A program made the position numbers and the translations under genes. A DNA stretch of 64,000 bases from Natronoarchaeum philippinense. Lineage in GTDB: Archaea > Halobacteriota > Halobacteria > Halobacteriales > Natronoarchaeaceae. Numbering within the stretch: position 1 is the stretch's first letter; each line of letters begins with the position of its first letter. The DNA lies in the NCBI RefSeq assembly GCF_900215575.1, contig NZ_OBEJ01000001.1:620001-684000 (forward strand), in the 5' to 3' direction. This document shows positions 22,171 through 47,537 of this stretch, in pieces. The notes under the pieces were generated by a model. That model made no database searches, had not been told where the DNA came from, and was given only the letters and a program-made list of their open reading frames with translations.

Positions 22171-22203
22171 TCAGCGGGATGCGCGCTGCTCGGCCTTGTT
22201 CAG
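22171..22203 (-). repeat. Copy A of the chorismate mutase 3' end (att-like)
   Basis: On the minus strand this encodes LNKAEQRASR plus a TGA stop, matching the last ten residues of the chorismate mutase gene (LNKAEQRESR) except Glu to Ala. It lies 1.7 kb away in the same orientation as the gene end. The next bases (22204-22238) match those beside copy B. Confidence 0.8.
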
Positions 22204-22290
22204 GTCTCAAAGTGATGTCACAGAACCCGTCTACTTTGTCGCTGTTCGACTCCGTGGCGAGAATTCCGGTGGGAGGGTGGCAAGCAGATG

Positions 22291-22338
22291 AATGGAAGAG
22301 GCCCACGGCAGAAGCCGTGGGAGATCTTCAATTCCATT
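22291..22338. repeat. Stem-loop resembling an IS200/IS605-type element end
   Basis: The core CCCACGGC (22302-22309), loop AGAA, GCCGTGGG (22314-22321) is a perfect 8-bp hairpin, with an outer pair AATGGA (22291-22296)/TCCATT (22333-22338). The CCCACGGC...GCCGTGGGA pattern is what I associate with right ends of haloarchaeal TnpB-carrying (IS1341-like) elements. No tnpA or tnpB remnant is visible, so this is a possible solo end or a terminator. Confidence 0.4.
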
Positions 22339-22450
22339 GCCTCCCACGGTGATACCGGCCACGCGTGGTTTCGGGAAATCCGTGGCCCGTTCACGGAAAT
22401 ACACTCTCTGTGGGTAATAGTGGGTAAGGCTTATCCAGAAGGTGGTCGTA

Positions 22451-22699
22451 ATGAGTAGCATGACGAAAGTGGATGCTCGCGACCTGCGAACCAACGAGAC
22501 CGACGACCGAGGTCGCATCTACCTCGGGACGGAGTACGCGAACAAGCGCGTGACTGTTGCCGTCGTCGAAGTCGAATCTGACCGACCTGACGAGGACGAA
22601 TTAGCAGCCGCGTACCGCGAGGCTTCCGAGAGCGCCGACCATCTGGCTGAGGAGTGGAAGGACGCCTCTGATGAGGCGTGGAACGGACTCGATGAATGA
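22451..22699 (+). CDS. Antitoxin partner of the MazF/PemK-type toxin
   Basis: 82 residues (ATG at 22451; another ATG three codons later is possible). The middle DDRGRIYLGTEYANKRVTVA looks like a small beta element of AbrB/MazE type. The C-terminal half is an acidic helix (ESADHLAEEWKDASDEAW) suited to wrapping the toxin. The assignment rests mainly on position: it overlaps the toxin start by four bases (ATGA). Antitoxin and toxin would form a complex that represses their own promoter. G+C is lower than in neighbouring core genes, fitting acquisition. Confidence 0.72.
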   Translation: MSSMTKVDARDLRTNETDDRGRIYLGTEYANKRVTVAVVEVESDRPDEDELAAAYREASESADHLAEEWKDASDEAWNGLDE

Positions 22700-23049
22700 G
22701 CGGTGATACCGAGGTTCGACGTGGCGATGTCGTAGTCGTTCGTCTCGACCCTGCCGAAGGTCATGAGATGAACAAGACTCGACCTGCAGTGGTCGTACAG
22801 AACGATATTGGAAATCGAAACTCCAGTACGACTATCGTTGCACCGGCGACAGGGACACATCGAGGCTACCCGTTCGAGGTGCTGGTCGAAGAGGATGGGT
22901 CACCGTTCGAGAAGGACTCCTCGATTCGCCTCGACCAGATTCGCGTCGTCTCTATCGAAGCCCGGATCCACTCGGTCGTCGGGAGTCTAAGCGAACCGAC
23001 TATGACCGAGGTGGACGAAGCACTGAAACTGAGTCTCGGGGTGGATTGA
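22696..23049 (+). CDS. MazF/PemK-family mRNA interferase toxin
   Basis: 117 residues with the compact MazF barrel: RRGDVVVVRLDPAEGHEMNK at the N-terminus, then TRPAVVVQNDIGNRNSSTTI, ending in a helix. R-G-D-V and K-x-R-P-A-V-V are the family landmarks. The Arg and the Ser/Thr in RNSSTT match residues used for RNA binding and cleavage. It would cut mRNA at short motifs and arrest growth when free of antitoxin. It sits between aroQ-end copies A and B. Confidence 0.87.
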   Translation: MSGDTEVRRGDVVVVRLDPAEGHEMNKTRPAVVVQNDIGNRNSSTTIVAPATGTHRGYPFEVLVEEDGSPFEKDSSIRLDQIRVVSIEARIHSVVGSLSEPTMTEVDEALKLSLGVD

Positions 23050-23203
23050 GGTTCTGATTCCCGGTGCAGGGAGATGTACCGTCATTCCTCCGCCGAGAGA
23101 CAATCTATGATGTGTGCTACCGCGACTCTCGCTGCTCGGCCTTGTTCAGGTCACAAACTGACGTTACAGATTCCGTCTATTTTCCGGCTCCTAAGACAGT
23201 TTC
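23050..23203. other. Junction between the two toxin-antitoxin cassettes
   Basis: 154 non-coding bases. Copy B of the chorismate mutase end occupies 23117-23149 and its conserved arm 23150-23184, immediately before the 3' end of the RelE-type toxin gene. Confidence 0.6.
23117..23149 (-). repeat. Copy B of the chorismate mutase 3' end (att-like)
   Basis: On the minus strand this encodes LNKAEQRESR plus TAG, identical in protein to the real gene end but with several synonymous base changes. The similarity to copy A continues for about 35 more bases (23150-23184), where the real gene end differs. Confidence 0.82.
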
Positions 23204-23488
23204 TCAGTCGTCGTCGGCTGTATACGCCCCTCCACGACGCTTAATTCGAGCGACGACCATTCGGTGCTCGTCACGGCGGAAAGTGACCGCAAGACGGAAT
23301 TCGCCGATACGCACCTTACGTCGTGAGCTATTCTGGAGGGGTTCACCATAGTCTGGTGGGTCACGCCACGGAGAATCGATGATTTCGTCGAGTTTGTCGA
23401 TGATGCGCTGCTGTTCGTTCGAATTAAGCGAGGTGAGGTCGTCCTGCGCTTTCGGTGCGAGTTCCCACGTCCACTCGCCGTCACTCAT
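23204..23488 (-). CDS. RelE/ParE-family toxin
   Basis: 94 residues starting MSDGEWTWELAPKAQDDL. The fold order is strand (WTWELAPKAQDDL), two helices (LNSNEQQRIIDKLDEIID), then a beta sheet with RRKVRIGEFRLAVTFRRDE and VVARIKRRGGAY. The Arg-rich sheet and the G-E-F-R-L pattern are typical of RelE-like ribosome-dependent mRNases. The start codon lies inside the antitoxin gene with an 8-base overlap. Bounded by aroQ-end copies B and C. Confidence 0.85.
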   Translation of the reverse strand: MSDGEWTWELAPKAQDDLTSLNSNEQQRIIDKLDEIIDSPWRDPPDYGEPLQNSSRRKVRIGEFRLAVTFRRDEHRMVVARIKRRGGAYTADDD

Positions 23489-23765
23489 CCGTCCCGTCAG
23501 TGCCGAACCGTTCGCGTGCTTCTTGGGCACTCATCGTTCGTTGTTCGTGAACGTCCTCTTCGGCTTGGAGGAGTGCGACGAGTTCGTCGCGGTCGAACGT
23601 GGGATGTTCGATAGCATCGCGTAGGGTGTACCGAATAAATTCGCTTCGACTGTTGAAACCCCGCCCCTGCCACGTGTCTTCAATTTCGTCAAGAAACGAC
23701 CGTGTGACTTTGAAGTTCACCGTGACGATTTCGTCGTCGCCGTTGTTTGTGGCCGCTTCGGACAT
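23481..23765 (-). CDS. Ribbon-helix-helix antitoxin
   Basis: 94 residues. VTVNFKVTRSFLDEIEDTW (about 14-32) followed by GFNSRSEFIRYTLRDAI is a CopG-like ribbon-helix-helix: one strand, two helices and a G-x-x-S-R-S-E-F turn. The acidic C-terminal helix would neutralise the RelE-type toxin. It is the first gene of the pair and probably represses it through the repeats at 23765-23784. Confidence 0.87.
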   Translation of the reverse strand: MSEAATNNGDDEIVTVNFKVTRSFLDEIEDTWQGRGFNSRSEFIRYTLRDAIEHPTFDRDELVALLQAEEDVHEQRTMSAQEARERFGTDGTDE

Positions 23766-23784
23766 ACGTCTGTATTACGTCTGT
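23765..23784 (-). promoter_or_regulatory. Two direct repeats at the RelE-module start (operator)
   Basis: TACGTCTGT occurs at 23765-23773 and again at 23776-23784, exactly 11 bases apart, about one helical turn. Ribbon-helix-helix dimers bind such half-sites side by side, so this is a likely autoregulatory operator overlapping the start codon. Confidence 0.55.
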
Positions 23785-23862
23785 GTTACTGTAGGTGTTT
23801 CGCCGTCCGAACGCTGAGGCTATTGAGAAACAGCAATAGACACGCGAAACCCGGGTTTCTTG

Positions 23863-24168
23863 CTACCGACTCTCCCGCTGCTCGGCCTTGTTCAACTCGA
23901 TCAACAGTCGGAAAATCGCCTTGACGAGGTTGCGATCCACGTCGAACTGGTCGGCGTTCTCGCCGGCCCGCTCCATCACTGCCGCCTCCTGTGACTCGTC
24001 GGTCGTCGGCAGGCCCTGCTCCTCTTTGACCTGCGCGATCGTGTCGGCGACGTAGGTTCGTCGCGCGATCAACTCGACGATTCCCTGATCGATGTCCCGG
24101 ATCTCCTCGCGGAGTTCCTCTAAGCTCATCTCGTCTGCGCGCCCGTGGATTGTGTCGTCGTTAGCCAT
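23863..24168 (-). CDS. aroQ: Chorismate mutase, AroQ class
   Basis: 101 residues, all helical. MSLEELREEIRDIDQGIVEL and IARRTYVADTIAQVKEEQGL are the first-helix and second-helix motifs with the active-site Arg and Lys, and DESQEAAVMERAGENA leads into the third helix. It converts chorismate to prephenate for Phe and Tyr synthesis. The start (ATG 24166-24168) lies 43 bases inside the shikimate kinase gene in another frame. Its last 33 bases are copied twice downstream (22171 and 23117), marking it as an insertion target. Confidence 0.92.
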   Translation of the reverse strand: MANDDTIHGRADEMSLEELREEIRDIDQGIVELIARRTYVADTIAQVKEEQGLPTTDESQEAAVMERAGENADQFDVDRNLVKAIFRLLIELNKAEQRESR

Positions 24169-45057: not shown

Positions 45058-46680
45058 CTATCCGGTGTAGCCGTCCTCCCAGCCGTTGTGGGTCGGCGAG
45101 AGATCGGCGTCGGAGTGGTTGCTGCCGGACTCCCAGACATCGCCGGTGCCGTCGGTCGGACCGCGACGCGTCTTCCACTCGAACGAGCCGGGGTCGTCGA
45201 TCGTCACCTCCCAGACGCCGTTCTCGACGTAGGTCCCCTGAACGCCGCCGCCCCAGTTGGTCAGCTCGTCCGTGCTGCCCGTGAAGAACACCGACTCGCC
45301 GTACTCGGTCGGGGCCTGAATCTGGAGCGTGATCTGATTGGTGCCGCTTCCGCCGCCGGTGCCTTCGGGACACTCCGTGGAGTAGACGGCGTAGCCGACC
45401 GCCGGTGCCGACACCTGCACGTAGCCGTCGCTGTTGACTTGCGTGTCCGAGGAACTGCCGGTACAGTCGGTCAGGGTCGTGCCGGACGACTGGGTCGTCT
45501 GAACCCACTCGCTGCGTCGGCTGTTGCCGCGGTTGAGCACGACCAGCCCGTCCCCGCGCTCGAAGACGTACAGTTCGCTGTCGACGTACCGCGTCGTCGC
45601 CCCGCCCGAGAGGACGTTCCGGCGGAGCGACAGGAGCGTCGAGATCTCGTCGTCGCTGGCGCCGATTCGGTGGTTGTAGACGCGGGGGTACCCCTCGTAG
45701 GTGAGGATGTAGGCGTAGGCCAGTCGCTCGTACTCCGGCGGTGCGCTGTCGTGGTTGGAGACGAACGTCATCGCACTGAACGGGTCTTGGTTGACCAGTC
45801 CCGCACCCTCCAGCGCGTTCATGTCGCCACTGGAGTGGAACACGTCCTCTTTCATCGTGTAGAACAGCGCGTAGTCCGTCACGGACATTCCCGTGTCGGC
45901 GTACTGCTGGTTCATCGATGTCGATCCGTCCAGCACCTCGCCGACCTTGTAGAGGCCGAACTCGTCGGCCCACTGGTTGGCGTAGTTGCTGAAGAAGGAC
46001 TCGGGCATGTGCTTTGCCGCGTCGAAGCGGACGCCGTCGACGCCCAGATTGGCGTACTTCTGGAGGTAGTTGTACAGCTCGCCGCGGACGTACGACGAGT
46101 CCTGATCGAGATCGCGCAGGCCGACGAGCCAACAGTTCTCGACGGAGTAGGGATCGCTGTAGTCGATGTCGCACTGGGGGTGGAAATCACGATTGCTGAA
46201 CCGCGGGATGTCGTCGATCGACACCTGTCGGTCGAAGTAGTCGCCGCCGGCCGCGAGGTGGTTCATCACCGCGTCGGCGATCACGTCGAGACCCTGATTG
46301 TGGGCCTCGTCGACCATCGCCTGATACTCCGACTCCGTGCCGAACTCGCTGTCGAAGTTCGTGAAGTCGATGGGCTGGTAGCCGAGCGGAACGTCGTAGG
46401 TGAACTGATCGTTCTCCCGCTCGTATTTGTACACCCGGGAGAACTGTGCCGGTGGGACTTGTATGGCGTCGTAGCCGGCGTCGGCGACGGCGGCGAGGTT
46501 GTTCGTGATCGTACTCCAGTCGGTGTGATAGTACTGATAGACTGCGCTGTCCCCGATGTCGGCTGCCGCAGAACCGGTCAACGACGACCCCATCGCCGTG
46601 CCCGCTGCCAATGCGCCGAGTCCTTTTAGGACGCTTCGTCGGTTAACGTTGCTCCCGAGTGAATTGGGATCTTCTGTCAC
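45058..46680 (-). CDS. Secreted alpha-amylase (GH13) with CBM20
   Basis: 540 residues. The Tat signal NRRSVLKGLGALAAGTAMG (RR at 14-15) marks export of a folded protein. The GH13 regions are complete: DAVMNHLA (I), GVRFDAAKHM (II, nucleophile Asp), VGEVLDGS (III, acid/base Glu) and FVSNHDSAP (IV). The C-terminal 100 residues (ITLQIQAPTEYGESVFFTGS) are a CBM20 starch-binding domain. It hydrolyses starch or glycogen outside the cell. I prefer the GTG at 46678-46680 to the TTG two codons upstream because the TATA box is 28 bases before it. Confidence 0.93.
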   Translation of the reverse strand: MTEDPNSLGSNVNRRSVLKGLGALAAGTAMGSSLTGSAAADIGDSAVYQYYHTDWSTITNNLAAVADAGYDAIQVPPAQFSRVYKYERENDQFTYDVPLGYQPIDFTNFDSEFGTESEYQAMVDEAHNQGLDVIADAVMNHLAAGGDYFDRQVSIDDIPRFSNRDFHPQCDIDYSDPYSVENCWLVGLRDLDQDSSYVRGELYNYLQKYANLGVDGVRFDAAKHMPESFFSNYANQWADEFGLYKVGEVLDGSTSMNQQYADTGMSVTDYALFYTMKEDVFHSSGDMNALEGAGLVNQDPFSAMTFVSNHDSAPPEYERLAYAYILTYEGYPRVYNHRIGASDDEISTLLSLRRNVLSGGATTRYVDSELYVFERGDGLVVLNRGNSRRSEWVQTTQSSGTTLTDCTGSSSDTQVNSDGYVQVSAPAVGYAVYSTECPEGTGGGSGTNQITLQIQAPTEYGESVFFTGSTDELTNWGGGVQGTYVENGVWEVTIDDPGSFEWKTRRGPTDGTGDVWESGSNHSDADLSPTHNGWEDGYTG

Positions 46681-46976
46681 GGCCAAATTTCAGAAGTACC
46701 TCATAATAAATACCGTGGGTAATTGTTAATGAAGTATAGAATAACGAGCAAATATTCATGCGAATAACAAAGTCAACTGTGATGAAATTATACGTAACAC
46801 CTCAATGCAGAATCGCGTGACGCCGTGCCGTCCGGGAGAACCAATTTTCGCTGATGACACGATGCGCGTCGATCGCTCCGTTTCGACGCCCGATCGGGAG
46901 CGTCGAGATCGCGGAGCAAATAGCGACGATCGAGGGGGGCAACGGTCCGGCGCGCGCTCAGAGAGCCGGCCCGTAA
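46681..46976. other. 296-base region upstream of the amylase, with an A+T-rich half
   Basis: About 46690-46800 is strikingly A+T-rich compared with the rest of the window and holds the amylase promoter (TATA 46703-46712) plus short inverted repeats such as ATTC-ATGC-GAAT (about 46756-46767). The other half (46805-46976) is ordinary G+C with no convincing gene. Confidence 0.5.
46703..46712 (-). promoter_or_regulatory. TATA box for the alpha-amylase
   Basis: TATTTATTAT on the minus strand, centred 28 bases before GTG 46680; it decides the GTG start. Confidence 0.7.
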
Positions 46977-47537
46977 TCAGTCAGTCCACTTGATCGAGCA
47001 GCCCTGCGACCGAAGCCACTCCTGATCGACCGGCTCGCCGGCCAGAATTGACTCGACGGCATCACGCACGTAGAACTCGGTCGGTTCGTCGTCGGGATTC
47101 AGTGCGTCGTCGAGACGCCCCTGATAGGCGAGGCGGAACTCGCCCTCTTCGCGGCGGAACAAGAACGGGTCTGGCGTACAGACCGCACCGTACTCGTGGG
47201 CAATGGACTGCTCCTCGTCGCGGAGGTAGGCGTCGTAGTCGATCCGGCCGTCGTCGACGAACTCCTGCATCGTCTCGAAGGAGTCGTCGGGGTAGGCCTC
47301 GGCGTCGTTGGGGTTGATGCCGACCACCGCGAGGTCGTCGTACGACGCCGCGAGATCGTTCAGGTGGTCGAACTTCGCTCGAGCGTACGGACAGTGATTG
47401 CAGGTAAACACAACCAGCAACGCCTCGGCGTCGTCGAACGAGGCCAGCGTGTGGGTTTCGCCGTCGACGCCGGGCAGTTCGAAGTCGGGCGCCGCGTCGC
47501 CGGCGTCCAGCGCCGGATCTGACTCTTTCAGGACCAT
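46977..47537 (-). CDS. Thioredoxin-family (redoxin) protein
   Basis: 186 residues starting MVLKESDPALDAGDAAPDFE. LPGVDGETHTLASFDDAEAL leads to the active site VVFTCNHCPYARAKF. A C-x2-C followed by P-Y-A is typical of AhpC/TSA-like redoxins of the type found in many haloarchaea. VCTPDPFLFRREEG carries the cis-Pro region. The protein probably reduces disulfides or peroxides in the cytosol, since no signal peptide is present. It is divergent from the acyl-CoA dehydrogenase gene. Confidence 0.85.
   Translation of the reverse strand: MVLKESDPALDAGDAAPDFELPGVDGETHTLASFDDAEALLVVFTCNHCPYARAKFDHLNDLAASYDDLAVVGINPNDAEAYPDDSFETMQEFVDDGRIDYDAYLRDEEQSIAHEYGAVCTPDPFLFRREEGEFRLAYQGRLDDALNPDDEPTEFYVRDAVESILAGEPVDQEWLRSQGCSIKWTD

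Follow-up and report, generated by a model that had tools for sequence, protein, structure and literature searches.

An arm beside displaced aroQ ends in haloarchaea: probable element-side half-site for the attachment of small integrative cassettes

Introduction

In the stretch of 64,000 nucleotides from Natronoarchaeum philippinense analysed here (the window; contig NZ_OBEJ01000001.1, positions 620,001 to 684,000), the end of aroQ is found three times, once at the gene and twice as displaced copies that are accompanied by a shared block of sequence. What is this arm, and why does it stand beside the displaced copies and not at the gene? A sequence-only reading had proposed an element-borne binding arm of a recombinase-like or IHF-like kind. 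We followed this proposal within the window and across the class Halobacteria.

Results and discussion

The two arms had been described as matching at about four of five positions, beside a true gene end with unrelated coding sequence. Both statements hold: bases 22204-22238 and 23150-23184 are identical at 27/35 positions, a level reached by none of 200,000 random pairs of 35-mers from the window, which is a crude control, and the stretch at the true aroQ end shares 9/35 and 8/35 bases with the arms. The motifs GACCTG and TAGACGG were also found as described. When the core is included (22175-22237 and 23121-23183), the likeness is 83%, and the whole genome of the organism contains three such places only, namely the two displaced copies and the gene end. 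The arms are alike because both are the ends of cassettes of one class (class I, see below), in which conservation runs over about 43 bases before the core (n = 40 class I sites), longer than first noted. The array lies in a low-GC dip of the window at 22-24 kb; a further dip is seen at 46001-47000 (0.58).

In the array, aroQ is followed by an RHH/ParE cassette, terminated by arm B, then by a mazF cassette whose end has decayed, and last by a remnant with arm A at its end. The target gene aroQ (23863..24168, minus strand; PF01817, 6.2e-20) encodes a type II chorismate mutase and its last codons are the landing site; core C, TTGAACAAGG (23886..23895, minus), belongs to the end of the intact gene. 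The first cassette, of 746 bp, extends from core C to core B (23150..23895, minus) and carries a toxin-antitoxin pair, with a class I arm at its end. Its ribbon-helix-helix type antitoxin (23481..23765, minus; 94 aa, no Pfam match) is 87% identical to a Natronorubrum bangense protein annotated as ribbon-helix-helix, and its RelE/ParE type toxin (23204..23488, minus; 94 aa, PF05016, 1.4e-6) has 85% identity with a protein annotated as RelE/ParE. RHH/ParE cassettes 83-92% identical to this one are found at aroQ in many genomes. Arm B (23150..23192, minus), whose inner part is the 23150-23184 noted first, matches the profile R1 described below with 56 bits, being itself in the training set of that profile. 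Core B, CTGAACAAGG (23140..23149, minus), and an aroQ-like tail follow.

The second cassette encodes, on the plus strand, a small antitoxin-like protein (22460..22699; 79 aa, no Pfam match) paired with a MazF/PemK type toxin (22696..23049; 117 aa, PF02452, 5.8e-31), and the same pair is present in 16 loci. Its end at 22359..22410 (minus) appears to be a decayed class II arm without recognisable core, in which 17/31 bases agree with the class II consensus; this assignment is weak because the profile R2 misses it. A remnant segment (22204..22358, minus) is closed by arm A (22204..22246, minus; class I), of which the first-noted 22204-22238 is again the inner part and which, also as a member of the training set, matches R1 with 50.7 bits. 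Core A, CTGAACAAGG (22194..22203, minus), and the outermost aroQ-like tail complete the array. A hairpin, CCCACGGC...GCCGTGGG (22297-22331), lies within the remnant, between arm A and the decayed end of the mazF cassette, and may resemble the ends of IS200/IS605-type elements. The array is bordered by a GHMP-kinase-type gene upstream and a DUF6789 gene downstream. An Rfam scan of the region gave a single match, far below the gathering score, and PADLOC matched nothing among the toxin-antitoxin proteins of the window.

In order to determine how widely the arm is shared, we searched 391 sampled genomes of the class, representing 86 genera. A DNA search with core and arm found it in 82/391 genomes and 38/86 genera. 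R1, a profile of the first arm type built from 53 sites, matched in 87/391 genomes and 46/86 genera (E <= 1e-4 per genome), and R2, built from 24 sites of the second kind, in 108/391 genomes and 43/86 genera; 161/391 genomes have either type. A degenerate pattern identified 14 stretches in GTDB species genomes, with titles naming haloarchaea or a Natrialbaceae MAG, all of which belong to the Halobacteria. Among viral contigs neither the AroQ protein nor the arm pattern found anything, and a DNA search of phages was likewise empty. The window and 40 fetched stretches together hold 82 sites other than aroQ ends, plus 36 aroQ ends, with at least two sites in 27/41 loci. Four arm classes can be distinguished, of which I and III are alike, as are II and IV.

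The aroQ-like core and tail would be expected if the arm were a former piece of aroQ coding sequence or a duplicate of the gene end, the explanation against which the sequence-only reading had set its own. The arm is however absent from the homologous position of intact genes (0/36 aroQ 3' ends), which rules this origin out. When read in the aroQ frame the arm moreover contains a stop, and it recurs with unrelated cargo and at sites other than aroQ, so that we give an origin in aroQ coding sequence practically no credence.

The position of the arm relative to aroQ was counted for the 77/82 R1 rows with E <= 1e-4. Sixty-six of these 77 matches, in 59 sources that were chosen because each had a match, lie downstream of the aroQ 3' end in the orientation of the gene; within stretches containing aroQ this holds for 66/66 arms, none being placed otherwise. 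The remaining 11/77 come from six sources whose stretch includes no aroQ, and in two of them, G375 and G175, aroQ is located about 61-73 kb off on the same contig. The location at aroQ is not universal: the proposed scan, which asked whether every hit lies at an aroQ 3' end, returned two genomes with insertions elsewhere, G383 (L050) and G325 (L051). The off-aroQ flank of G383 was present in no other genome of the 40.

The arms terminate tandem cassettes of about 0.5-5 kb each, whose cargo is usually a toxin-antitoxin pair. Class I is mostly the end of an RHH/ParE cassette of about 752 bp, and class II closes cassettes in which MazF is paired with a small antitoxin; in class III the cargo is often PIN with a VapB-type antitoxin, and in class IV PIN with an AbrB/MraZ-like protein. 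This correlation, together with short inverted repeats in class III, is what would be seen if the arm served the toxin-antitoxin genes as promoter, operator or terminator, and the partial tie between arm class and cargo also counts against the reading that we prefer (below). Yet one and the same arm, class I, also closes cassettes that carry LysE (L043, L048, L058, L066), GNAT (L036, L051 and, by annotation, L075; the gene in L051 was identified by eye, without a domain scan), PIN (L071) and glyoxalase (L042) genes. The RHH/ParE pair of L035 is inverted relative to its arm, and the arm always abuts the core. A regulatory function for the cargo was rejected on account of the common arm on unrelated cargo, and we regard it as highly improbable. 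Class III likewise ends segments with Nramp (L070), a trypsin-like protease (L059), an alpha/beta hydrolase (L068) or an ABC transporter and a methyltransferase (L037). A single element as the source of the arms is not supported.

The order of cassettes is variable: IV-I in L044, I-IV in L049, II-I in L039 and II-III in L073. A domain scan of 30/51 listed cargo proteins revealed no recombinase; it gave one weak Mutator-transposase match and one TnpB-type fragment. The fragment, at L040:13374-14030, has a TnpB/Cas12f-like nuclease domain and lies inside an aroQ array.

Movement of the cassettes can be observed by comparing occupied and empty sites. G390 and G247, of one genus, are 91% alike over 7 kb upstream and 89% over 8 kb downstream of a 784-bp AbrB/PIN cassette, which in G390 sits exactly between aroQ and the RHH/ParE cassette and is absent in G247. 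The junction falls exactly at the core and the left flank is identical at 60/60 bases. In G325 an 806-bp GNAT cassette is inserted away from aroQ, with an aroQ-like tail on one side and a class I arm on the other. The left flank belongs to a sequence that is repeated in that genus; copies in G123, G391 and G392 (L173, L172, L168) are uninterrupted at the site, and a fourth copy, in G397 (L167), aligns less clearly. Cassette and target have about six bases in common, ACAAGG. Both comparisons show precise insertion. For the window array itself no precise empty site was found; G033 was considered and rejected, its downstream region having diverged too far to give a clean pair.

The RHH/ParE cassettes are more alike than the aroQ genes beside them in 92/105 locus pairs (mean 88.9% versus 84.3%), the extreme being G390 and G352, of different genera, with 97.8% for the cassette and 81.7% for aroQ. 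Such a pattern suggests that the cassettes move horizontally, with the reservation that the two genes are under different coding pressure. Restoration of the target gene is seen throughout: the window has an intact end (core C) and displaced copies (cores B and A), and the 36 aroQ ends are intact in their arrays.

Larger, integrase-bearing elements occupy the same site with the same kinds of arms. In G375 a convergent tyrosine recombinase gene (373 aa, PF00589, 3e-11) lies right after aroQ, and G175 has at the same place a recombinase 42% identical to it. Downstream, the next attachment site has in each case a class III arm and an aroQ-like tail; it is about 59 kb away in G375 and 45 kb in G175. 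The 11.3-kb block around this far site (L096, L097) is 98% identical in these two genomes of different genera, which makes the far ends of the two elements uncertain. In both genomes the integrase gene is preceded by a second, smaller ORF that weakly resembles the integrase profile (L094:11249-11803 and L095:4458-4982). G321 retains an integrase gene remnant in a 1.8-kb segment between integrase-side sequence and a class III arm.

Related integrases are found in G328 and G224, 47% identical to each other and 36-38% to those of G375 and G175, at about 1.9 kb (G328) and 1.2 kb (G224) from aroQ. In each of these genomes R2 matches once only, at a class II arm that lies downstream in the orientation of aroQ, 32.5 kb off in G328 and 38 kb in G224. 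Scans of these elements (L183-L186; two of 10 proteins each and another of 10 in all) showed them to be rich in defence-type genes: GmrSD, an SNF2 helicase with a DUF1156 methylase, a type IIG restriction enzyme and an AAA ATPase. Arm class follows integrase clade in 4/4 elements, for which the chance probability is near one third at n = 4. The integrase-side flank in G375 and in G321 resembles an inverted class I arm (2/2000 shuffles each); these sequences are homologous, so the two results count as one observation, and the G175 flank has no such likeness.

Of the original proposal, the element-borne and recombinase-site-like character of the arm was supported, the arm recurring in 87/391 genomes on unrelated cargo and arms of classes II and III standing at the far side of integrase elements; nothing points to IHF. 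Recurrence at one position and in one orientation, a common arm on different genes, precise insertion and integrase-bearing elements with like arms at this site together suggest that small integrative cassettes insert at the aroQ 3' end through an attachment site whose element-side half is the arm. We consider this reading probable, the mechanism being deduced from its products. The recombinase acting at the arm would be an aroQ-targeting tyrosine recombinase, and the integrase would bind the arm. A circular cassette, through which passage is postulated, would carry the arm, CTGAACAAGG and a substitute aroQ tail. Recombination within the short core would join the cassette tail to aroQ, the gene therefore remaining whole, and would leave arm, core and old tail at the far side, so that aroQ of the window would now carry the tail brought by its first cassette. 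Repeated insertion would build the tandem arrays. In the available part of a review of these enzymes (PMC8371274), archaeal tyrosine recombinase sites need bases beyond the core common to attB and attP, which fits a required arm.

Several findings count against this reading. No integrase gene was found in the small cassettes, and with an HMM of the integrase family 1.40 Mb around arrays yielded matches at G375, G175 and G321 alone. The family is not specific to aroQ, which adjoins 2 of its best 30 loci. We propose that the small cassettes are probably moved in trans by integrases of the larger aroQ elements. The arm could instead be integrase-related and yet served by another recombinase, a host Xer protein or an unrecognised integrase family, the aroQ integrase elements merely sharing the landing site. 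Most arrays indeed lack a nearby integrase of this family. Among nine genomes for which PF00589 places were listed, only G352 and G166 (two weak matches) have any within about 20 kb on the array contig. Of the integrase-bearing elements found, none ends on the far side in a plain class I arm. Against this alternative, class II and III arms, and not just the core, stand downstream of aroQ integrases, and G328 and G224 each have a single R2 match, namely this class II arm; we judge the alternative rather unlikely, though by no means negligible. In the window's own genome nothing matches the G375 integrase at E <= 1e-20, and the listed PF00589 places are all more than 20 kb from the array. Its cassettes may be relics, or may have come with a helper since lost.

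In several respects the aroQ elements resemble tyrosine-integrase islands and proviruses at gene 3' ends, which also restore the end of the target gene, leave a displaced copy at the far border and use a short core. They differ in that the target is a protein gene, most cassettes lack an integrase, and cassettes stack in tandem with common arms over unrelated cargo. Being without integrase, though working like such elements, the small cassettes are at most non-autonomous members of them.

Integron arrays and CALINs, as described in the available part of PMC9668308, share small cassettes, many toxin-antitoxin pairs, variable order and an integrase that is often not nearby. If the aroQ arrays were integrons or attC clusters, the arm would be an attC site and an integron integrase would move folded single strands; tandem short cassettes rich in toxin-antitoxin genes, acetyltransferases and single genes, with no nearby integrase, match the archaeal CALINs of that text. 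Class I arms, however, fold like shuffled sequences on both strands (z -0.98 to +0.09; 6/8 folds), two class III folds being better than shuffles (z -2.1 and -2.8; 2/2 of that class). The sites are conserved in sequence, beyond structure alone, and the landing site is a gene end, aroQ, not attI. The two integrases tested came nowhere near any NCBIfam cut-off; with the archaeal XerA model, which has integron integrase in its title, they scored 56 and 45 bits where the threshold is 220. They gave no integron-specific match above cut-off. By these tests, of class I folding and of two integrases, the arrays do not appear to be integrons, and we hold that identity to be very improbable.

The dif modules of Acinetobacter plasmids act through Xer, and their sites have XerC/XerD-type inverted half-sites. 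As far as the available accounts go, they are also small, some with toxin-antitoxin genes, with short border sites and no recombinase of their own. Their sites are dif-like, in contrast to a core that is the aroQ end, and the 66 placeable arms of the aroQ arrays are all in one orientation. Cores often have the form GACC-TGAACAA-GGTC, a short inverted repeat around seven bases, which is exact in 15/55 class I/III sites.

The aroQ cassette arrays resemble the bacterial integron in arrangement but are seemingly made of different parts. More tentatively, and with somewhat less than an even chance in our estimation, haloarchaea might own a cassette system independent of integrons, with aroQ as landing site and integrases supplied by aroQ-integrated defence islands; a pool of toxin-antitoxin and single-gene cassettes without integrase would be captured, stacked, reshuffled and passed between genera, and each arm class would be the address of one integrase clade. 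If true, archaea would have a platform for collecting cassettes that compares with integrons but uses a gene end as its attachment site, which would explain why toxin-antitoxin pairs stand in rows at one chromosomal address (arms in 161/391 sampled haloarchaeal genomes) and would name candidate enzymes and sites for direct test. Titles and the beginnings of abstracts in the open-licence literature yielded no paper on aroQ as an archaeal integration site or on such arrays.

A class II-like arm with an aroQ-like tail was also noticed away from aroQ in G022 (L179:4239-4281), about 350 bp from another tyrosine recombinase gene (L179:2720-3901).
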